Shown in pieces: positions 29,223 through 40,595 of a stretch of 40,595 nucleotides of DNA. The translations under genes were made by a program, and so were the position numbers. The notes below the pieces were generated by a model, which worked only from the letters and a program-made list of their open reading frames with translations, did no database searches and was not told where the DNA came from. The stretch spans positions 1-40,595 of the forward strand of contig JAJTXZ010000045.1 of the NCBI GenBank assembly GCA_021463195.1, read 5' to 3'. Each line of letters starts with the position of its first letter. Position 1 is the first letter of the stretch. Source of the stretch: Anaerolineae bacterium. Its GTDB lineage: Bacteria > Chloroflexota > Anaerolineae > UBA4142 > SHND01.

Positions 29223-30551
29223 TTAATTGATTACATGTTCTGGCGCCGGCGCGTAAAACTGCGCTTCTTCGGTCGAACCCGTCAACGCTTTGGTCGAAAC
29301 GGCTTCGCCAGTCAACGCGGTTTGCACCTCGTCGAAATAACCCGCGCCGACAAAACTCTGATGTTTGACCGCTTTATAGCCATGCTCATATTCCATTTCA
29401 AATTCTTTTTCCTGCAAACGCGAATACGCCAACATGCCCTCGAGATTGTAATTGTGCGCGAGGTCGAACATGCTCGCGTTGAGCGTGTGGAAACCCGCGA
29501 GCGTGACGAATTGAAATTTGTAACCCATTTCGCCCAGTTGCTCTTGGAACGTGAGCATCGTCTTTTCGTCCAGATGCTTTTTCCAGTTAAAGGACGGCGA
29601 ACAATTGTACGCCAACCATTTGCCGGGAAATTTTTCATGGATGCCTTGCGCGAATTCGCGCGCTTCGCCCAAATCCGGTTTATTGGTTTCGCACCACACC
29701 ACATCCGCGTACGGCGCGTACGCGCGTCCTTTGGCAATCGCGAGTTCCAAACCGCCGCGCACGACATGATAACCCTCAATCGTGCGTTCGCCGGTCATGA
29801 ACGCTTGGTCAATCGGATCAATCAGCGTGTGCATCAAATTCGCGCCTTCGGCATCCGTGCGCGCAATAATGAGCGTCGGCACGCCCATAACATCCGCCGC
29901 CAAACGCGCCGCGTTCAGTTTCGGCAAAAACTCATGCACGCCGACCAACACCTTGCCGCCCATGTGACCGCATTTTTTCAACGCCGAGACTTGATCTTCG
30001 AGATGCACCGCCGCCGTGCCGGCTTCAATCATCGCTTTGACCAATTCAAACACATTCAGCGTGCCGCCAAAACCCGCCTCCGCATCGGCGACGAGCGGCG
30101 CGAACCAATGCGTCTCGTTTTTGCCCTGCATGTGCTGTATTTGGTCCGCGCGCTGCAGCGCGTTGTTAATGCGCTTGATTAACGTCGGCACGCTGCTGAC
30201 CGAATACAACGATTGGTCGGGATACATTTGCAGCGAATCATTCGCGTCGCCCGCGACTTGCCAGCCGCTGACATAAATCGCTTTCAAGCCCGCCGCGACC
30301 ATCTCAACCGCCTGATTGCCCGACATGGCGCCGAGCGAACGCACAAAGGGTTCGGTCTCCAAAAGTTCCCACAAACGCAGCGCGCCCATTTCAGCGAGCG
30401 AATAGCGCAGACGCACCGAACCGCGCAGGCGCACCACCTCCGCCGCGGTAAAAGCGCGCGTAACTCCTTTCCAACGCGGCGATGTTTTCCATTCGTTTTC
30501 GAGCTCGAGAACTTGATCGTACGACATGGTGTTTGAGACCGCGTCGTTCAC
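29223..30551 (-). CDS. aceA: Isocitrate lyase
   Basis: A 442-residue enzyme that cleaves isocitrate to glyoxylate and succinate, the first step of the glyoxylate shunt. The catalytic signature KKCGHMGGK is present, with the acidic metal/substrate region [10 protein letters not shown] and LEDQ just before it. Length matches the bacterial form. The start is uncertain: GTG 30551 begins the right arm of a 13-bp hairpin, and ATG 30527 lies eight codons inside; neither has a clear Shine-Dalgarno. It is 103 bp downstream of aceB. Together with AceB and AceK it lets cells build C4 acids from acetyl-CoA. Confidence 0.95.
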
Positions 30552-30579
30552 GCGGCAACAGCCCGGGTGAACGACGCGG
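30539..30579 (-). promoter_or_regulatory. 13-bp perfect inverted repeat at the aceA start
   Basis: CCGCGTCGTTCAC (30539-30551) and GTGAACGACGCGG (30567-30579) flank 15 nt. In the mRNA the second arm starts exactly at GTG 30551, the possible aceA start codon. It could mask that start, set the aceB:aceA ratio or be a protein-binding site. No T-run follows, so it is not a terminator. Confidence 0.65.
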
Positions 30580-30654
30580 CGATGACTGTGAATTTTCCGC
30601 GCCGCCCGCGCGTATCGAGTGCGACCAACCGTGTCGCCGCGCGCGCGCCGAGAT

Positions 30655-32259
30655 TCAATCCAAATACTGATACGCCGGCAGCGTCAAAAAATCCGACAAC
30701 TGTTCCGCCGTGACCAACTTGTCAAACAATAGCGCGGCTTCCGCGAGACGCGATTTGGACACATTCGCTTCGCCCCACGCGCGTTTGATTTTTTCGATTT
30801 CGTCGTCCAACAGCGCGCGATACAATTCGGGCGTGACCCGCCGCCCATCGTCCAACACGCCGCCGTGATGCAGCCACTGCCACACTTGCGAACGCGCGAT
30901 TTCCGCCGTTGCCGCGTCTTCCATCAAATTGTTGAGGGCGACCGCGCCACTGCCTCGCAGCCACGCTTCAGTATATTGAATCGCCACGCTAATATTGTTG
31001 CGCACGCCCGCTTCCGTAATCGTTCCGCCCGGCACCTTGAAATCAATCAGCTGCGCGGCAGTCACCGCCACCTCTTCGCGCATCCGCTCTTTTTGATGCG
31101 GCTTGGCGCCCAACGCCGCGTCAAACACCGCGCGTACAGTCGGGACCAAATCGGGATGCGCGATCCAAGTGCCATCAAATCCGTCTTGCGATTCGCGCAA
31201 CTTGTCCTCGCGCACCTTTGCCAGCGCGTTTTCATTCACCAGCGGATCTTTGCGCGAAGGAATGTACGCCGCCATGCCGCCCATCGCGTGCGCGCCGCGT
31301 TTGTGGCAGGTGCGTACCAAAAGTTCGGTGTACGCGCGCATAAACGGCACCGTCATGGTCACTTGAGCGCGGTCGGGGAATACGACATTTTGACGCGCGC
31401 GGAATTTTTTGATGCACGAAAAAATATAATCCCAGCGGCCCGCGTTCAGCCCCGCGATATGCTCGCGCAATTCGTATAAAATTTCTTCCATCTCGAACGC
31501 GGCGAGAATCGTCTCCACCAACACGGTGACTTTGATTGTGCCTTGCGACAATCCGACGTAATTTTGCGCGAACACAAAAACATCGTTCCACAAACGCGCT
31601 TCAAGGCGCGACTCTAATTTCGGCAGATAAAAATAAGGGCCCTTGCCTTTGTCCAACAAACGCCGCGCGTTGTGAAAAAAATAGAGTCCGAAATCAAACA
31701 ACGAACCGGACATGGCGCGCCCATCCACCAGCATATGTTTTTCTTCGAGATGCCAACCGCGCGGACGCACCAAAAGCGTCGCCACCTTTTCATTCAACTT
31801 GTATTCTTTTTCGGGCGTTTTCAAAAAAATCACGCCCTCGATCGCATCCGTGAGATTGCGCTGCCCGTGCAGCATATTATGCCACGTCGGCGCGTTGGCG
31901 TCCTCGAAATCCGCCATGAACATATCCGCGCCGCTATTGAGCGCATTGATAAGCATTTTCGTATCGGTCGGTCCGGTGATTTCGATATGCCGCCGCTGCA
32001 GCGCGTCGGGGATAGGGGCTACACGCCACGTCGGGTCATTACGCACGCTTTCGGTTTCGGCGAGAAAAGTCGGGTCCTCGCCCGCGTCAATGCGCGCCTG
32101 GCGCGCCGCGCGCTCCTGCAGCGCGTCGAGACGGCGTTGATTGAATTCGCGCTGCAGCGCGACGACAAATTTCAACGCGTCGGCGGTCAACACTTGTTCG
32201 CCCGCGGCATCGAGCGCGCCGCGCAACTCAACTCCATCCGGAATAAATGGATGACTCAT
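30655..32259 (-). CDS. aceB: Malate synthase A
   Basis: A 534-residue enzyme that condenses glyoxylate with acetyl-CoA to malate, the second step of the glyoxylate shunt. Features include [16 protein letters not shown], the catalytic-region [13 protein letters not shown], and [15 protein letters not shown], the malate synthase A signature, followed by the Mg-binding and thiol-acceptor segments. Size fits isoform A rather than G. ATG 32259 overlaps the patatin stop (ATGA) and has AAGGAG upstream inside the patatin gene, so the two are coupled. Confidence 0.95.
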
Positions 32260-33545
32260 GCCTGCTCCTTTTGGGTGATATATTCGATGCGTTCCAAGGT
32301 GGTATGCAAATCGGTGAGCGCGCGCCGCAAGGGCCGCGTTGTCACGCGACGTCGTTTTAGTCGCGGGCGCGCAGGCGGATTTTCCAAAATGCGCCGCAGG
32401 GTGCGCGGCGAGGTTCCATCCTGTTGCAATTCGCGCAGCTCTTGCAGCAAGACGCGCCGCGTAATGTGAATGTCGTGCCGTTCCAATAGCATTTTATAAT
32501 GCGCGTAATCTTCGGCGATGCGCAGGGTTACGCTTTCAAAACCATGCCGCGCCAAAATCAAACGCGCGGAATAACGCATCGCGTTATAAAAAAACATTTT
32601 GTAATCATGGCGCGAAGGTTCAATGAGAATAATATCCACTTCAGGATGCGTCTTGCGTAACTGTTTGATATGATAATGCAGCGAACCATGCGCCGAGATG
32701 CGCGTGATTTGCTGCGCGATGGCGGACAACCCCTTGTCGCTCAGATAAGCGCTATTGGGACCAAGCAGCGGAATATTGCTGTGTTCGCTGTTGTCGAGCG
32801 GCACCATCGGATTAATGCAGACGACCAATTTGGCGCCATGTTCAATCGCGATATCGAGCGAAGCGTTTGCGCGCGCCGCGCCATCCACATAATCGTGACC
32901 GTCAATGCGAACGGGCTTGTACAAAACGGGGACAGCGGACGATGCCGCAATCGCTTTGGAAATCGGCACATGGCCGTGCGATTCTTTGGAAAACACGGCG
33001 CGCTGTCCATTATCCAAATCAGTGGCGATAACGTACAGTTCGCGGTCGAGGTCTTGAAAATGATCGCTCTTGGCTTGACTGTCCAGCACACGCGTAATAT
33101 ATTTTTCGAGCGCGCGATTGTCGTAAAAACCGGCGGGAAGCGCGTCTAAAAATAACCAGATGACGTCGAACAACGTCATGTCGCTCATGTGACGCAAATA
33201 ATGCGACCACGCGCCAACCAGCGTGCGCGGAATTTTGACGCCCCAGCGCGCCAAATCGCTGCGACTGAGCGAAAAGACATCGCGCGGCTGAATCGGCGGC
33301 ATGCGACTGTGTTCGCCCGCCAACGTATCCATCACCTCGTGCGGACTGATGCCTTGCGCCAAAAAGGAAGCGACGAGCGCGCCCGCGCTCGTGCCGACAA
33401 AAATATCAAAATCGTTGACAGTGCGGTCGAGCAACAAATCGTCAATCGCGCGGAGGGCGCCGATTTCGTACACCGCGCCGGTCAAACCGCCGCCGGCGAG
33501 AACCAGCGCCGTTTTAGAGTGACGCGTCTGTTTGGATAATGCCAT
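32256..33545 (-). CDS. Patatin-like phospholipase, first gene of the glyoxylate operon
   Basis: A 429-residue lipid acyl hydrolase. The oxyanion motif GGGLTG is at 18-23, the nucleophile Ser53 is in GTSAG, and the dyad aspartate is in VDGAARAN (about 216). A C-terminal extension of about 100 basic residues is unlike minimal patatins. It probably releases fatty acids from phospholipid or stored acyl lipid, which would enter beta-oxidation to acetyl-CoA and so supply AceB. It has its own sigma-70-type promoter and AAGGTGATT before ATG 33545, in a small hairpin. Confidence 0.88.
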
Positions 33546-33766: not shown

Positions 33767-33794
33767 TTGACACTTGGCGATTTTTCCGTACAAT
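33767..33794 (+). promoter_or_regulatory. Sigma-70-type promoter of the histidine operon
   Basis: TTGACA (33767-33772) and TACAAT (33789-33794) with a 16-nt spacer make a near-consensus promoter. Transcription would begin about 33800-33802, two to four bases before the leader ATG at 33804. Confidence 0.85.
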
Positions 33795-33803
33795 CCGCGA
33801 CAA

Positions 33804-33899
33804 ATGATCGTTACACGCTTGCCCCAATTCGTTTTCAATGCGCGCCATCACGCGCAGCATCATCGTTTACACGGGGTGAGTTGGAACGCGCCGCGCTGA
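33804..33899 (+). CDS. Candidate histidine leader peptide
   Basis: A 31-codon ORF too short for usual gene calling. Its middle reads HHAQHHRLH: five of nine residues are histidine (codons at 33846-33851, 33858-33863 and 33870-33872). It starts ATG at 33804, about three bases after the predicted transcription start, so it would be translated as a leaderless or near-leaderless message, and ends at TGA 33897-33899. An intrinsic terminator follows at 33934, before hisZ. The arrangement is that of amino-acid-responsive leader peptides such as proteobacterial hisL, here with interspersed rather than consecutive histidines. The peptide itself probably has no function beyond being translated. Confidence 0.75.
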   Translation: MIVTRLPQFVFNARHHAQHHRLHGVSWNAPR

Positions 33900-33935
33900 T
33901 TGGCGCGTCGAGCCAAAATCTTTTGATTCACCCCG
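33872..33935 (+). promoter_or_regulatory. Leader RNA helix enclosing a hairpin
   Basis: CGGGGTGA (33872-33879) pairs with TCACCCCG (33928-33935), enclosing ACGCGCC (33886-33892) with GGCGCGT (33902-33908). The outer helix takes the two lowest base pairs of the terminator stem (33934-33935). A copy of ACGCGC at 33850-33855, inside the histidine codons, could compete for GCGCGT. These are plausible switching elements, but the exact scheme is not resolved by eye. Confidence 0.55.
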
Positions 33936-33967
33936 GGGCTAGTCGGTTCACGACAAGCCCCGTTTTT
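33934..33967 (+). terminator. Attenuator terminator before hisZ
   Basis: CGGGGCT (33934-33940) pairs with AGCCCCG (33956-33962), and GTCG with CGAC continues the stem after one A-A mismatch, around loop GTTCA. TTTTT (33963-33967) follows, then ATTTT. It ends only nine bases before the hisZ ATG, so full-length his mRNA requires read-through. Confidence 0.85.
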
Positions 33968-33975
33968 ATTTTCCT

Positions 33976-35181
33976 ATGCTGCCAGCATCATCTATCGAAC
34001 GACAACTGCCGCACGGCGTCGCGGATTTATATTTTGAACAAGCGGCGTTCAAGACGCGGCTCGAAACGCGGCTGCAAGAAACTTTCGCGCAGTGGAATTA
34101 TACCCAAGTGATTCCGCCGACGTTTGAATATTATAAAGCGCTCGCCGCCGAAGCGAGTCCGCAAGTGCGCGAAGAAAGCTATCGCTTTCCCGACCACGAC
34201 GGCAAAATGCTCGCGCTGCGCGCCGACCCGACGATTCCGATTGCGCGCCTCGTCAGCACAAAATTGTATGACCAACCGCTGCCGCTGCGTTTTTTTTATA
34301 TCGCAAGCGTGTTTCGCCACGAAGAACCCAAAGCGTCGCTGCGCCGCGAATTCACGCAAGCGGGGGTAGAGCTAATTGGCGCAGGCACGCCGCAAGCCGA
34401 TGCTGAAATGCTTGCGCTCGCGGTCGCCGCGCTGCGCGCCGCCGGACTGGAAGAATTTCGACTGAGTCTCGGCGCGATTGATTTTGTCAACGCGCTGCTC
34501 GCGCCGCTGCATTTATCCGCGCCGCAGCACGCGCAAATCAAATCCGCGCTCGAACGCAAAAATCAAGGCGCGCTCGCCGACACGCTGCGCGCGCTGCGAA
34601 TCGCGCCGGAATCGCAGCGCGCGCTCAGCGCGCTCCCGACGCTCGCGGGCGACGCCACGATTTTGGAGCGCGCCGCGTCCGAGTGCGCGGGGAACCAAGT
34701 CGCATGCCGCGTCATCGAACGCCTGCGCGTAATGACACGACTTTTTGACGCGTTGGGCATCGCCGATATGGTGACACTCGATCTCGGCATGGCGCGCGGC
34801 ATGGCGTACTATACCGGCATTGTGTTCGAGGGTTTCGCGCGCGGCATCGGTTTTCCGATTATGAGCGGCGGACGCTATGACAATTTGCTCGCGCACTTTG
34901 GCCGCGCGCTGCCCGCGTGCGGATTCGCCATTGGCGTCGAACGCGCGCTCGCGGCATTGCAACTGCAACGTCACGACCCGATCTCGCTCGCGCCCGAAAT
35001 TATCGCCGAATTGAGCGCGGCGCGCGCGTTGACAGAGCGCGTCGCCGCCGCGCGCCGGCAAGGCGCGCGCGTGGAATGGTATTTGCAAAATCATGCGCGC
35101 GACGAAATGCTGGCTTATGCGCGCGCGCGCGGCGCGGCGCGCGTCTGGTTCGCCGATGGCAGCGCGGCGGAGGTGACATGA
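33976..35181 (+). CDS. hisZ: ATP phosphoribosyltransferase regulatory subunit
   Basis: A 401-residue paralogue of histidyl-tRNA synthetase that lacks tRNA charging and activates the short HisG. Class II synthetase motifs are recognisable (ALRADPTIPIARL, FFYIASVFRHEEPKASLRREFTQAGVELIG, and MSGGRYDNLLAHFG near the C-terminal third). Its position directly before a short-form hisG, with a 4-bp ATGA overlap, supports HisZ over HisS. ATG 33976 has no Shine-Dalgarno and abuts the attenuator T-run. Expression is probably governed by the leader peptide. Confidence 0.9.
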   Translation: MLPASSIERQLPHGVADLYFEQAAFKTRLETRLQETFAQWNYTQVIPPTFEYYKALAAEASPQVREESYRFPDHDGKMLALRADPTIPIARLVSTKLYDQPLPLRFFYIASVFRHEEPKASLRREFTQAGVELIGAGTPQADAEMLALAVAALRAAGLEEFRLSLGAIDFVNALLAPLHLSAPQHAQIKSALERKNQGALADTLRALRIAPESQRALSALPTLAGDATILERAASECAGNQVACRVIERLRVMTRLFDALGIADMVTLDLGMARGMAYYTGIVFEGFARGIGFPIMSGGRYDNLLAHFGRALPACGFAIGVERALAALQLQRHDPISLAPEIIAELSAARALTERVAAARRQGARVEWYLQNHARDEMLAYARARGAARVWFADGSAAEVT

Positions 35182-35816
35182 ACGCGTTAACCATTGCGCT
35201 GCCCAAGGGCCGCTTGTTGACGCCCGCGCTCGATCTGTTGGAAAAAATCGGTTATGCCGCGCACGAGCTGCGCGGCGGCACACGCAAATTGATGATTCCC
35301 GACGCGGCGCGGCACACGCGTTTTCTGCTGCTCAAACCCTTTGACGTGGCGACGTTTGTGGAATATGGCGCGGCGGACCTCGGCATCGTGGGTCAAGATG
35401 TTTTGCTGGAACAGGCGAGCGATGTATTTGAACCGCTCGCGCTGCCCTTTGGTTTGTGTCGCTTTGCGCTCGCCGCGCGCCGCGAACGCGCGCAGACCGC
35501 TTGGCGCATGGAAACCGCGCTGCGAATCGCGACCAAGTACCCGCGCCTCACGCGCCAATTTTTTGTCGAACGCGGTTGGCCCGTCGAAATCATTCCGCTG
35601 CACGGTTCGATTGAAATCGCGCCCGCGTTGGGTTTGGCGGATTTGATTGTGGATATTGTGGATACGGGACGAACGTTAAAAGAAAACGGTTTGGTTGAAA
35701 TCGAAACGTTATCTCATTCGCGCGCCGCGTTGATTGTCAATCGCGCGAGCCACACGCTGCGGTTTCAGGAAATTCAAATGTTGCTGGGCGAGCTAAAGAG
35801 AGTGATCAGTGATTAG
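35178..35816 (+). CDS. hisG: ATP phosphoribosyltransferase, short form
   Basis: A 212-residue catalytic subunit that joins ATP and PRPP in the first step of histidine synthesis; as a short form lacking the C-terminal feedback domain it needs HisZ. TIALPKGRLL opens the first domain, and LADLIVDIVDTGRTLKENGL is the PRPP-binding signature. ATG 35178 overlaps the hisZ stop and has GGAGG a few bases upstream. The last codons (RVISD, then TAG) lie in a heptamer array that begins at 35800, so the native C-terminus may have been altered by that repeat. Confidence 0.94.
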   Translation: MNALTIALPKGRLLTPALDLLEKIGYAAHELRGGTRKLMIPDAARHTRFLLLKPFDVATFVEYGAADLGIVGQDVLLEQASDVFEPLALPFGLCRFALAARRERAQTAWRMETALRIATKYPRLTRQFFVERGWPVEIIPLHGSIEIAPALGLADLIVDIVDTGRTLKENGLVEIETLSHSRAALIVNRASHTLRFQEIQMLLGELKRVISD

Positions 35817-35834
35817 TCTCCAGTCTCTGGACTC
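35800..35834. repeat. Heptamer-phased array running into the end of hisG
   Basis: Five units in exact phase: GAGTGAT and CAGTGAT (35800-35813), then TAGTCTC, CAGTCTC and TGGACTC to 35834. The first two units encode the last residues of HisG and the third supplies its stop codon. Confidence 0.7.
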
Positions 35835-35854
35835 TACTTATCAAGCGGTGAAAT

Positions 35855-37204
35855 ATGATTCCAATTTTATTTGGCATTGACGCGGCGCGCGGCCGGCTCG
35901 CGCGGCAGCGCGCGTTGATCGAGAAAACGCTAACGCCCGAAAGTATGGCGCGCACGGAAAAAATTTTTGGCGCGGCGTTGACGCCCGAACAGGCGGTGAA
36001 AAAAATTTTGGATGATGTTCGCGCGCGCGGCGATGACGCGGTGGGAATATGGAATGAAAAGATTGACGGCGGAGCGCGCGAAAATTTTTTGATGAGCGCG
36101 GACGAAATTGAAACCGCGTATCAAGAAACGCCTAGCGCGGCGCGCGACGCGCTGCATCTCGCCGCGCAGCGCATTCGCGCGTTTCATGAAAAACAGAAAC
36201 CGCGTTCGTGGCTCGAGTGGACGCCCGAGGGCGGAGCGCTCGGTCAAATTATTCAACCGCTCGAACGCGTGGGCATTTATGTGCCGGGCGGCGCCGCGCC
36301 TTTGCCTTCTTCATTGCTCATGTCCGCGATTCCCGCCGCCGTCGCAGGCGTATCGGAAATTATCATCATGTCGCCGCCCGCGCGCGCCGGCAAAATCGCC
36401 CCCGTGATTCTCGCCGCCGCGCGCGTTGCCAAGGTCGCGCGCGTCTATGCGCTCGGCGGCGCGCAGGCTATCGCGGCGCTGACGTTCGGCACACAAACGA
36501 TTCCGCGCGTGGACAAAATCTGCGGCGCGGGCGGCATTTTTACGACGCTCGCCAAACGTCAAGTGTTTGGCATCGTCGGCATTGACGGCTTGTACGGTCC
36601 GACGGAAACTGTTTTGATTGCGGACGATGCCGCGAATCCAAGCTACGCCGCGGCGGATTTATTGGCGCAAGCGGAGCATGACGCGTTGGCGACGAGTATT
36701 TTGCTTACGCCGTCGCGCGCTTTGGCGGAACAGGTCGCGCGCGAAATTGACGCGCAGCTGCCCGCTTTGTCGCGCCGCGCGGTGATTGAACAAGCGCTGC
36801 GCGGGCAAGGCGCGATTTGTGTCTTGGCTTCGCTGGACGAATGTTTGGAAATCGCGAATATGTATGCGCCGGAACATTTGTGTTTGTTGACGCGCGAGGC
36901 GTGGACGCTCGCGCCGCGCGTGCGCAACGCGGGCGGTATTTTTATTGGCGAACAATCGTCCGAAGCGTTGGGCGATTACATGCTTGGACCCAGTCATGTG
37001 ATGCCGACGGGCGGAACCGCGCGTTTCATGTCGCCGCTGAATGTGAACGATTTCGTGAAAATCACGAGCGTGTTTTATGCGAGCGCGGCAGAAGCGCGAC
37101 AGTTGAGCGCGCCGGGACAATTTTTGGCGAACAGCGAAGAATTGACCGCGCACGCGAACGCGTTGAAACAACGAATGCCAAAGGCGGACGAGTCAAAAAG
37201 ATAG
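35855..37204 (+). CDS. hisD: Histidinol dehydrogenase
   Basis: A 449-residue zinc enzyme that oxidises L-histidinol to histidine in two NAD-dependent steps, the last reactions of the pathway. Family blocks include VGIYVPGGAAPLPSSLLM, KICGAGGIFTTLAKRQVFG, LLAQAEHDALATSILLT (catalytic Glu-His-Asp region) and PSHVMPTGGTARFMSPLNVNDF. Length is normal, with a slightly extended N-terminus. ATG 35855 is preceded by AGCGGTG, a weak ribosome site. It is 38 bp after hisG. Confidence 0.95.
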   Translation: MIPILFGIDAARGRLARQRALIEKTLTPESMARTEKIFGAALTPEQAVKKILDDVRARGDDAVGIWNEKIDGGARENFLMSADEIETAYQETPSAARDALHLAAQRIRAFHEKQKPRSWLEWTPEGGALGQIIQPLERVGIYVPGGAAPLPSSLLMSAIPAAVAGVSEIIIMSPPARAGKIAPVILAAARVAKVARVYALGGAQAIAALTFGTQTIPRVDKICGAGGIFTTLAKRQVFGIVGIDGLYGPTETVLIADDAANPSYAAADLLAQAEHDALATSILLTPSRALAEQVAREIDAQLPALSRRAVIEQALRGQGAICVLASLDECLEIANMYAPEHLCLLTREAWTLAPRVRNAGGIFIGEQSSEALGDYMLGPSHVMPTGGTARFMSPLNVNDFVKITSVFYASAAEARQLSAPGQFLANSEELTAHANALKQRMPKADESKR

Positions 37205-37223
37205 CGCGCGGCAAAGGAGTGAT

Positions 37224-38270
37224 ATGGCAAAACGATTCTTGCGTTCGGATTTGGATACGCTACCCATTTACACGCCCACGCCCGCGGTGGAGCCGCGGAG
37301 CGTGATAAAACTGGATTCGAATGAGAATCCGTACGGACCTTCGCCGCGCGTACTTGCGGCGCTCGCCGACGCGCGGACGTGGCAGTATTATGCCGGTCAA
37401 GACGATTTACGTAAAACATTGGCGCAGTACGCGGGGGTGCAAGCGGAAAATATCGTCGTGACGAACGGCGGCGATGACGCGATTGATTTGATTTTGCGCG
37501 CGACGCTCGAACCAAACGATATCGTGATTGACGCGCCGCCATCGTTTGAGATGTATCGTATCTGGACGCTAGCGCATCGCGGGCGAGTGATTGACGCGCC
37601 GCGTCGTGACGATTTTTCGTTGGATACGCAAGCCGTAATCAGCGCAAGTCAAACGCCGCGCGTCAAAGCGCTTTGCCTCGCGTCGCCGAACAATCCCGAC
37701 GGCGGAGCGCTGCCGCGCGCGGATTTGTTAAGGTTACTCGCGCTGCCCATGTTGACGCTGCTAGACGAAGCATATTCTGAATTTGCGGGCGTCAGCGCGG
37801 TGGATTTGATTGCCACACACCCGAATCTGGCGATTGTGCGCACGTTCAGCAAATGGGCGGGGCTGGCAGGACTGCGCGTCGGTTATGTCATTGCGGCGCC
37901 GGCATTAGCCAATGCGCTGCACCAATTACGCGCGCCGTATAATGTCAATCGGGCGGGGTTGATTGCCGCGCGCGAATCGTTGAACGATGTCGCATATCTG
38001 ATGAATAACGCGCGCGCGCTGATGGCTGAACAGGAACGCATGCGGAGCGAGTTGGCGAAATTGGGTTGGCTCGAACCGCTGCCGAGTCGCGCCAATTTTT
38101 TGCTCGTGCGCGTGCGCGGACGTGAACCGCAAAGCATCAAACAACAACTCGCGCAAAAAGGTATTTTAATCCGCGCATTCCAAGCGGCGCGTTTGCGCGA
38201 ATATCTTCGCATCAGCATCGGCACACCGGAAATGAACGGTGCGGTTCTGCAGGCATTGGAAATGCTTTGA
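37224..38270 (+). CDS. hisC: Histidinol-phosphate aminotransferase
   Basis: A 348-residue class I/II PLP enzyme that converts imidazole acetol phosphate to histidinol phosphate with glutamate. The PLP lysine is Lys210 ([16 protein letters not shown]). The N-terminal [13 protein letters not shown] is the HisC substrate motif, and the aspartate/tyrosine cofactor residues are in [14 protein letters not shown] 37224 has AAAGGAG about six bases upstream. It lies 19 bp after hisD. Confidence 0.95.
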
Positions 38271-38289
38271 AATTGGAGAACGGAGACTG
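38269..38289 (+). repeat. Heptamer-phased spacer with the hisB ribosome site
   Basis: Three units in phase (GAAATTG, GAGAACG, GAGACTG) run from the hisC stop codon to three bases before the hisB ATG. GGAG at 38282-38285 is at normal Shine-Dalgarno distance from ATG 38293. Confidence 0.6.
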
Positions 38290-38292
38290 AAA

Positions 38293-38883
38293 ATGGCGCG
38301 TCTGACGACAATCGAACGCAAAACTCGCGAAACCGAAATTCAACTCTCGCTGAATCTGGATGGCGCGGGGAACGCGGAGCTTGAAACAGGAGTCGGTTTT
38401 TTGGACCACATGCTGCATCATGTCGCAGTGCATGGTTTATTTGATTTGAATGTCCGCGCGCAAGGCGATTTGCGGATTGACGCGCATCATACCATCGAAG
38501 ATGTGGCGATTGCGTTGGGCGATGCGCTGGACCAAACGTTGGGCGAGCGCAAGGGTATCGCGCGCGTCGGACACTGCTATATGCCGATGGATGAGGCGCT
38601 GGCGCGCGTGGTCGTGGATTTGAGCGGGCGCGGGTACGCGGTCTTTGCGGGCGAATTTACCGCGCCGCTGCTCGGCGCGTTTCCGACCTCGCTGGTCGCG
38701 CATTTTTTTGAAACCATGGCGCAGCGCGGCAAAATGAATTTACACGCGTGCGTGTTGTATGGGCGCGACGACCATCATAAAGCGGAAGCGTTGTTCAAAG
38801 CATTAGGGCGCGCGCTGCAAATGGCGGTCGCGCGCGACGAACGGCGCGCGAACACTTCGACAAAGGGCACTTTGAAAGCATGA
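38293..38883 (+). CDS. hisB: Imidazoleglycerol-phosphate dehydratase
   Basis: A 196-residue monofunctional enzyme (no fused histidinol phosphatase) that dehydrates imidazole glycerol phosphate. Metal-binding histidine clusters are seen in [40 protein letters not shown] and [22 protein letters not shown] 38293 starts the conserved [16 protein letters not shown] and follows GGAG by seven bases; upstream in-frame codons belong to the end of hisC. Confidence 0.95.
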
Positions 38884-38884
38884 G

Positions 38885-38945
38885 GCAAGACGGAGGGCGA
38901 ACGGCAAAACTTGCATTCCTTCTCCGTCATTGGCCATCCGTCATT
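38885..38945. repeat. Inverted pair of heptamer arrays between hisB and hisH
   Basis: Three plus-oriented units (GCAAGAC, GGAGGGC, GAACGGC; 38885-38905) face five opposite-oriented units in exact phase from 38911 to 38945, among them CGTCATT twice. GACGGAG (38889-38895) and CTCCGTC (38922-38928) can close a hairpin. Confidence 0.65.
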
Positions 38946-38947
38946 TT

Positions 38948-39556
38948 ATGATTGCGATTATTGATTACGGGATGTCGAATCTGCGAAGCGTGCGCCATGC
39001 GTTCGAGGCGTTGGGCGCGGACGCGCGCATTGTGAATTCGCCCGCCGCTTTGCGAAACGCGCGCGCGCTCGTCCTGCCTGGCGACGGCGCATTCGGTCCG
39101 GCGATGGAAAATTTGCGCGCCTACGGCTGGCTTGAACCTTTGCGCGCGGCAATCGAACGCGGCGTTCCTTTTCTCGGTATTTGTTTGGGCATGCAGTTGT
39201 TGTTTGATTCGTCGAAAGAAAATGGCGCGCATCGCGGCTTGGGCATTTTACGCGGGACGGTGAAAAAATTTCCGTCCGCCGCGGGCAAGATTCCGCACAT
39301 CGGATGGAATCAACTGCAAATTCAAGCCAATTCAAAATTTCTCGCTGGTTTGGCGCAAAACACATTCGTCTATTTTGTGCATTCGTACTATTGCGACGCG
39401 CGCGATAAAAATGTAATCGCGGCGCGCGCCGAATATGGAATCTCTTTTACATCAGTCGTCGAAGCGGACAATGTATGGGGCGCGCAGTTTCATCCCGAAA
39501 AGAGCGGCGCGGATGGGCTGCGGATGCTAGGAAATTTCTTGCGGCTTGCGCCGTGA
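38948..39556 (+). CDS. hisH: Imidazole glycerol phosphate synthase, glutaminase subunit
   Basis: A 202-residue class I glutamine amidotransferase that feeds ammonia to HisF. The nucleophile is Cys79 in FLGICLGMQLLFD, and the His/Glu pair is in GAQFHPEKSG. IAIIDYGMSNLRSV is the usual N-terminus, so ATG 38948 is chosen; it has no Shine-Dalgarno, and TTTT from the preceding heptamer spacer adjoins it. Its stop (39554-39556) overlaps a GTG in the hisA frame. Confidence 0.95.
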   Translation: MIAIIDYGMSNLRSVRHAFEALGADARIVNSPAALRNARALVLPGDGAFGPAMENLRAYGWLEPLRAAIERGVPFLGICLGMQLLFDSSKENGAHRGLGILRGTVKKFPSAAGKIPHIGWNQLQIQANSKFLAGLAQNTFVYFVHSYYCDARDKNVIAARAEYGISFTSVVEADNVWGAQFHPEKSGADGLRMLGNFLRLAP

Positions 39557-39575
39557 GACTGGAGACTGGAGATTT
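39555..39575 (+). repeat. Heptamer-phased spacer at the hisH/hisA junction
   Basis: GAGACTG, GAGACTG and GAGATTT in exact phase. They overlap the hisH stop codon and the probable hisA start, and GGAG at 39561-39564 is nine bases before TTG 39574. Confidence 0.65.
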
Positions 39576-40347
39576 GTTTACAATTTTTCCGGCGATTGAT
39601 TTGCGCGGTGGACGCGTGGTGCGTTTAACGCAAGGACGCGCGGAAAGCGAAATAGTGTATTCCGACGACCCTGCCGCAATCGCGCGACGATGGGAACGCG
39701 AAGGCGCGGCCTGGCTGCACATTGTCAATCTCGATGGCGCGTTCGGCGCGCGCGACGCGCTCAATACACGCGCGTTGGAAAATATTCTGGCGGCGATAAA
39801 AATTCCCGCGCAGTTCGGCGGCGGGTTGCGTGATGTAAAAGCAATGCGGCGCGCGTTCGATTTGGGCGTGAGCCGCGTCATTATCGGCACGCTCGCGCTG
39901 GAACAACCCACGCTGGCGCAAAAGGCGGTGGCTGAATTTGGCGCGGCGCGCGTCGCGTTGGCGATTGACGCGCGCGATGGGTTGGTAAAAACGCGCGGCT
40001 GGGCCCAAGACTCGAAAGTGGACGCGCAAGCATTCGGCAGGCAAATGCGCGCGTTGGGCTTGACGCACGCGATTGTGACCGATATCGCGCGCGATGGAAT
40101 GTTGCAAGGCATTGACGCGAACGCGATGGCGGATTTCGCGCGCGCGACCGCGCTGCGCGTAATCGCTTCGGGCGGCGTTGCGTCATTAGAGGACCTGATA
40201 AATTTGCGGCGCGGCGAGCCGTTTGGAATTACAGGCGTGATAATCGGACAAGCGTTGTACAAAAACGCGTTCACGCTTGCCGACGCGCTGCATTGGGTTG
40301 CGCCTGAAACGCCGCGACGGCGCAAACCGCGTTACTGCGAAGGATAA
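39574..40347 (+). CDS. hisA: ProFAR isomerase
   Basis: A 257-residue half-barrel-repeat TIM enzyme that isomerises ProFAR to PRFAR. The catalytic Asp is in [23 protein letters not shown] holds a phosphate-binding loop, and the second catalytic Asp is in [24 protein letters not shown] is the C-terminal phosphate site. TTG 39574 is chosen because homologues begin right before [11 protein letters not shown] 39553, which overlaps the hisH stop as GTGA, would add seven residues encoded by the heptamer array and remains possible. Confidence 0.93.
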
Positions 40348-40348
40348 C

Positions 40349-40595
40349 ATGCTGGCGAAACGAATCATTCCCTGCCTCGACATCAAAAAGGGGCGCGTAG
40401 TCAAAGGCATCAACTTTGTCGGTTTGCGCGATGCGGGCGACCCGCTCGAACACGCGCGCTGGTACGCGGAACAGGGCGCGGATGAATTGACGTTTCTCGA
40501 CATTACGGCATCGGTGGAAGCGCGCGGCACGCTGCTGCAGATGGTCGAACGCATCGCGGATACGCTTTTCATTCCGTTCACGGTGGGGGGGGGGG
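40349..40595 (+). CDS. hisF: Imidazole glycerol phosphate synthase, cyclase subunit (3' truncated by window end)
   Basis: The first 82 codons of a protein whose full length is usually about 250. [19 protein letters not shown] is the typical start with the catalytic Asp, and [10 protein letters not shown] continues the first barrel strands. It cyclises PRFAR to imidazole glycerol phosphate and AICAR with ammonia from HisH. AAGGA stands just before ATG 40349, one base after the hisA stop. The sequence ends in a run of eleven G where TVGGG of the family is expected; the last G may be an error. Confidence 0.93.

Follow-up and report, generated by a model that had tools for sequence, protein, structure and literature searches.

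A histidine (his) operon lies at the 3′ end of the window (the whole 40,595-nt stretch of Anaerolineae DNA analysed here), and its leader most probably acts as a ribosome-mediated transcription attenuator (probability about 0.72). In the proposed mechanism, a ribosome stalled on His codons would let two RNA strands, B and C, pair (B:C), and this helix would sterically stop closure of the intrinsic terminator that it abuts. As judged by comparison of genomes, a leader open reading frame (ORF) with His codons, a covarying B:C helix, and a terminator abutted by strand C stand before hisZ or hisD in many Chloroflexota, and on this comparative evidence a widespread His attenuator in the phylum is real. 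The earlier note, written from the window's letters alone, had suggested a His leader-peptide attenuator in a probable member of the Chloroflexota, a proposal now strongly supported by about 56 homologous leaders.

The leader of the window and its relatives

The window leader, on the forward strand, opens with a sigma-70-type promoter (33,767-33,794) composed of TTGACA (33,767-33,772), a 16-nt spacer, and TACAAT (33,789-33,794), the sole 11-of-12 promoter match in the 15.6-kb region scanned. Nine bases past the -10 box is the ATG (33,804-33,806) of a predicted near-leaderless ORF of 31 codons (33,804-33,899; stop codon 33,897-33,899), which has homologous His-run ORFs in relatives. Its translation is MIVTRLPQFVFNARHHAQHHRLHGVSWNAPR, and its five putative regulatory His codons (33,846-33,872) start at 33,846, 33,849, 33,858, 33,861, and 33,870. 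The intrinsic terminator (33,934-33,972) comprises arm E (33,934-33,945), a loop, arm F (33,951-33,962), and the U-rich tract TTTTTATTTT, with 13 nt between the stem end and the hisZ ATG (33,976). The promoter and start codon proposed earlier were found as placed, within a base or two; translation of 33,804-33,899 bore out the His-rich ORF of 31 codons with its stop at 33,897; and the GC-rich hairpin and T-run described just before hisZ are present as the terminator stem (33,934-33,962) and U-rich tract. The predicted fold of the leader beats 200 of 200 dinucleotide shuffles (z -3.7).

The regulated operon begins with hisZ (33,976-35,181; TIGR00443, 321 bits) and continues with hisG, hisD, hisC, hisB, hisH, hisA, and hisF (35,172-40,595), giving the order hisZ-G-D-C-B-H-A-F. 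The identities of hisZ to hisA were confirmed with NCBIfam equivalog models; hisF, whose start was assigned by eye from the sequence, is cut by the window end. The hisZ start follows the terminator stem without a visible Shine-Dalgarno sequence (33,963-33,978), as also in L005 and L007. Upstream, the minus strand carries divergent genes for isocitrate lyase, malate synthase A, and a patatin-like phospholipase with weak resemblance to CBASS lipases (29,223-33,545).

A single-sequence hisZ search of genome contigs gave no confirmed relative, and an alignment-based search then found relatives. When hisZ was sought in 60 related genomes, 30 clear loci were obtained, the window included, and 26 of these have a short leader ORF with 2-5 tandem His codons followed by a terminator. 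At E <= 0.01, a covariance model built from the 26 leaders found through hisZ alone has matches in 59 of 396 genomes from the class. Inspection of 28 new matches identified 25 as real leaders, of which 22 lie before hisZ, two before hisD (G009 and G026), and one at a contig end (G296); the other three (G148, G188, and G106), which are among the weakest matches, proved to be unrelated terminators. Across 400 genomes of the phylum the model finds one match outside the class, and it also matches four out of 10 further Chloroflexota hisZ loci, for a total of about 56 homologous leaders, all in Chloroflexota; the named relatives are Chloroflexota/Anaerolineae MAGs. No leader for another amino acid was seen among the model matches inspected. 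Aligning the leaders upstream of hisZ, which the earlier note had put forward as a check, reveals His codons kept in 26 of 30 loci and helices that covary in 52 leaders.

Promoters and terminators alone are common, and the window arrangement could be read as the ordinary terminator of an upstream unit next to a chance His-rich ORF. The upstream gene is divergent, however, and about 56 leaders of hisZ or hisD show the ORF, His run, B:C helix, and spacing again, a comparison that refutes this reading and leaves it with a very low probability. Because the ORF, His codons, helix, and terminator all recur in relatives, the window leader lies far beyond chance.

The peptides differ outside the His run, so the His codons rather than the peptide appear to be kept. 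A typical sister-family peptide ends in KHHHxxGVxR before the stop codon, and those of other groups often end in HHHxxG; exactly three tandem His codons occur in 36 of 51 leaders, with CAT used 122 times and CAC 36 times. The spaced rather than tandem His codons remarked on earlier are thus true of the window but are a local peculiarity, the family norm being tandem HHH. One genome contains a second leader copy before hisD (L062:501-609, G009 contig C102), in which the His run has decayed to Tyr-His-Phe (MLTERFAFKYHFTSGVDR, then the stop) and B, C, and the terminator are intact.

Regulation by a His T-box instead of a leader peptide is extremely improbable. Strand B (GGGTGRRTCG) is slightly T-box-like and T-boxes are plentiful, with seven matches in the window's own genome, but the T-box covariance model (RF00230) has no match in the leader at E up to 10, the T-box TGG is not kept (mostly GGGTGA), and the His codons and open ORF are. 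As a separate observation, T-box matches number 6-11 per genome in the window's own genome (G000) and seven relatives, yet the his operon there has a leader peptide.

Each of the 16 hisZ leaders from the window's own order has a predicted promoter whose -10 box is 7-9 nt ahead of the ATG of the leader ORF. Across the family, none of the 24 leaders whose start codon is 6-10 nt after the predicted -10 box has a Shine-Dalgarno sequence, and 13 of the 19 with a start codon at least 14 nt away have a similar motif. On sequence grounds, the homologous leaders make near-leaderless initiation of the window ORF probable, and a single attenuator family would include leaderless as well as Shine-Dalgarno starts. 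Seven own-order genomes contain 5-15 copies each of the exact pattern TTGACA-N16-18-TAYAAT-N6-9-ATG, against none in a reversed control; these counts suggest that leaderless genes are common in the order.

Strands B and C, the ribosome, and the terminator

Strand B of the window (33,872-33,885, forward strand; CGGGGTGAGTTGGA), which is predicted to be gated by the ribosome, is conserved and covaries with C in 52 leaders, its typical form in the family being GGGGTGAG. Strand C (33,922-33,935; TTTGATTCACCCCG), located by helix search and covariation, pairs with B and abuts the terminator, and the folded leader places within B:C a hairpin (33,886-33,908; arms 33,886-33,893 and 33,901-33,908) that holds the leader stop codon. 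The helix proposed earlier between 33,872-33,879 and 33,928-33,935 exists and is in fact longer (33,873-33,885 with 33,922-33,934).

In the 52-leader set, which was partly chosen with a model containing B:C (the first 26 came through hisZ alone), the B:C and terminator helices are paired in 92.8% of cells, with a covariation score of 0.458 versus 0.213 for shuffled alignments (0 of 500) and at most 0.133 for slid ones. Two-sided changes are present in 16 of 19 pairs overall (8 of 9 in B:C and 8 of 10 in the terminator), and the terminator, which also covaries, is paired in 97.7% of cells across the 52 leaders. The terminator stem (A2 columns 162-190; window 33,936-33,960) has in these leaders a sequence of about RRGRCTRGTY with two fully invariant pairs, a conservation beyond what an intrinsic terminator needs and one that no cis partner explains; a search of 10 genomes found this exact sequence in his leaders only and at no other operon.

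The distance from the first base of the run's first His codon to the start of strand B is 13-21 nt throughout the 52 leaders (counted in the window from the second His pair). Ribosomes protect about 10 nt past the A site and span about 30 nt (PMC4824070), so that one stalled at the first His codon would leave B just free. In the window the second pair (33,858/33,861) is 15 nt upstream of the GGGG of strand B. In 46 of 52 leaders the stop codon falls within -7 to +20 nt of the position where B starts, the exceptions being L015 and five of the six leaders of the window's genus, and from this spacing a terminating ribosome is expected to overlap B. A free search over 60 nt for the best B:C helix put the end of C between -2 and +5 nt relative to the terminator arm for 46 of the 52 leaders. 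The gap is mostly 0-4 nt and the strand is usually not shared with the terminator, a 2-nt overlap being confined to L002 (the window) and L003; the B-C distance varies widely.

The geometry of an alternative helix exposed by the stall and masked at the stop codon therefore fits 52 of 52 leaders for the stall and 46 of 52 for the stop, the window being a stop exception. The classical form, in which an antiterminator shares a strand with the terminator, is not seen family-wide, and the window has the 2-nt overlap and possibly one further pairing (A:E, below). No competitor strand for the terminator arm is enriched across the 52 leaders (mean z -0.02 in the leader, -0.05 in the middle, and +0.68 in the B flank). 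The abutting gap and the missing competitor strand set these leaders apart from the classical attenuator. It had been claimed that the helix steals two base pairs at the terminator base; such an overlap is real in L002 and L003 and is too small by itself to decide termination, while elsewhere C merely abuts.

When His-tRNA is sufficient, the ribosome would reach the leader stop codon and, in most of the family, cover B; with B:C unformed, the terminator would fold and transcription would end. Under a shortage of His-tRNA, the ribosome would stall at the first His codons, its leading edge not quite reaching B, and B:C would form while the terminator is still incomplete. At a distance of 0-5 nt from the terminator base, B:C would then prevent the last pairs from closing inside RNA polymerase, and the operon would be transcribed. 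B:C should oppose the terminator, since starvation should open the operon and starvation frees B. In most leaders C has no strand in common with the terminator, nor was a competitor strand found, which leaves nearness as the explanation. Termination falls from about 90% to less than 10% when a ribosome stops 5 bp upstream of a terminator, and closing of the final terminator base pairs is considered essential (PMC4824070); from this precedent of a blocking ribosome we infer that an abutting RNA helix may act in a similar steric manner.

Equilibrium free-energy folding shows no such block, B:C and the terminator being allowed together; in masked folding of the window, the lower terminator stem has a probability of 0.80 with B:C present versus 0.93-0.99. 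Since the terminator forms thermodynamically despite B:C, a steric or kinetic block would be needed. The opposite polarity, in which B:C aids termination (e.g. by stacking) until it is relieved by a ribosome that stalls on later His codons and covers B, has little probability. C is contiguous with the terminator, which makes stacking possible, and a ribosome halted at the last His codons would extend to B. However, the terminators look strong by themselves, so that read-through would not follow from the loss of B:C; in all 52 leaders, a ribosome stalled at the first His codon would end just before B; and a terminating ribosome would cover B too, so that B:C would be lost when His is plentiful. 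Antitermination by B:C thus remains our preferred reading. We consider the chances even that these leaders embody a distinct antitermination principle, in which a helix gated by the ribosome, without having a strand in common with the terminator, sits immediately against the terminator base and keeps the last pairs from closing inside RNA polymerase. The switch would be stripped to one helix whose sole conserved relation to the terminator is distance, which would make the family a clean case for testing if an adjacent RNA helix is enough to halt an intrinsic terminator.

Strand A in the genus of the window

The idea that a ribosome at the stop codon disrupts B:C, also part of the earlier note, suits the family (46 of 52 leaders) but the window poorly, its stop codon being 24 nt past the start of B. 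There, a ribosome at the stop codon would leave B to pair with a genus-specific partner, strand A (33,817-33,825, forward strand; GCTTGCCCC), which by folding and shuffle comparisons can also pair with 33,935-33,939 of arm E. Strand A probably sequesters B in the window in place of the terminating ribosome. In the modelled full leader, A:B reaches a probability of 0.98 when the ribosome sits at the stop codon, and a ribosome placed at the second His pair gives B:C a probability of 0.86. In the stop-codon state, B:C outcompetes A:B until the 3′ arm of the terminator is made, and A:B must therefore win kinetically. A:B is only weakly above shuffles in the window (10 of 200; z -1.6); it is stronger than shuffles in L003, L005, and L006 and weaker in L004 and the window. 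In L007, neither the stop position nor strand A accounts for the hiding of B. As a family-wide feature strand A was rejected, being seen in the window's genus only and perhaps also in L020; the extra strand appears to have been gained in a genus whose stop codon sits farther from B.

A second role is possible for strand A in the window and L003: it may occupy the terminator's 5′ arm, so that A:B plus terminator would alternate with B:C plus A:E. This four-strand switch is possible because the GCCCC of A can hold the GGGGC of the terminator before the 3′ arm is made, and it could be a classical overlapping switch restricted to this genus that needs no steric principle. A window transcript ending at 33,940 does fold as B:C plus A:E, and A:E beats shuffles in the window (z -3.5) and marginally in L003 (z -1.9). 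Yet in the shuffle comparison of the 52 leaders A:E is seen neither in the genus's four further leaders nor in the remaining family, where the B:C-terminator arrangement is the same, and the five A:E pairs must resist a 12-pair terminator. We consider this alternative unlikely, and prefer the steric action of B:C.

Comparison with known attenuators

His leader-peptide attenuators have been described in Proteobacteria and some Firmicutes (PMC9413887, PMC2965389); a description of the Chloroflexota family was not found in the open-access papers searched, and an Rfam scan of the window leader matched no family. The enterobacterial his attenuator (His_leader, RF00514) likewise has a His-codon leader peptide, a terminator before the his operon, and ribosome position as the sensor (PMC9413887), but its covariance model has no match in the window leader at E up to 10. 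Its antiterminator shares a strand with the terminator, whereas the Chloroflexota antagonist helix only abuts, and its peptide contains seven His, in contrast to the short tandem HHH and, in the window's own order, the near-leaderless start of the Chloroflexota leaders. The hisZ/his attenuators of Firmicutes similarly combine a His-run leader ORF with a terminator (Naville and Gautheret 2010, PMC2965389; PMC9413887), but belong to another phylum, and 0 of 41 Firmicutes hisZ loci match the Chloroflexota covariance model; alternative antiterminator structures are described for them (PMC9413887).

Leaderless regulatory ORFs that begin at or beside the RNA 5′ end and carry codons for the product amino acid are known elsewhere, namely trpL of S. 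meliloti (PMC7298713) and, in the account of Canestrari 2020 given in PMC13236596, the mycobacterial poly-Cys ORFs; the predicted near-leaderless Chloroflexota leaders would resemble them. Those systems differ in phylum and in amino acid (Trp and Cys, respectively), and the Chloroflexota family would have Shine-Dalgarno starts besides leaderless ones. For the ilvB1NC attenuator of M. tuberculosis, direct masking of the antiterminator is ascribed to a ribosome positioned at the stop codon (PMC13236596), as is predicted for strand B in most of the Chloroflexota family; its antiterminator and terminator are described there as mutually exclusive, whereas the Chloroflexota antagonist helix shares no terminator strand family-wide. 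Against this background, the Chloroflexota his leaders form a family unlisted in Rfam, whose interesting part is the putative abutting-helix mechanism.
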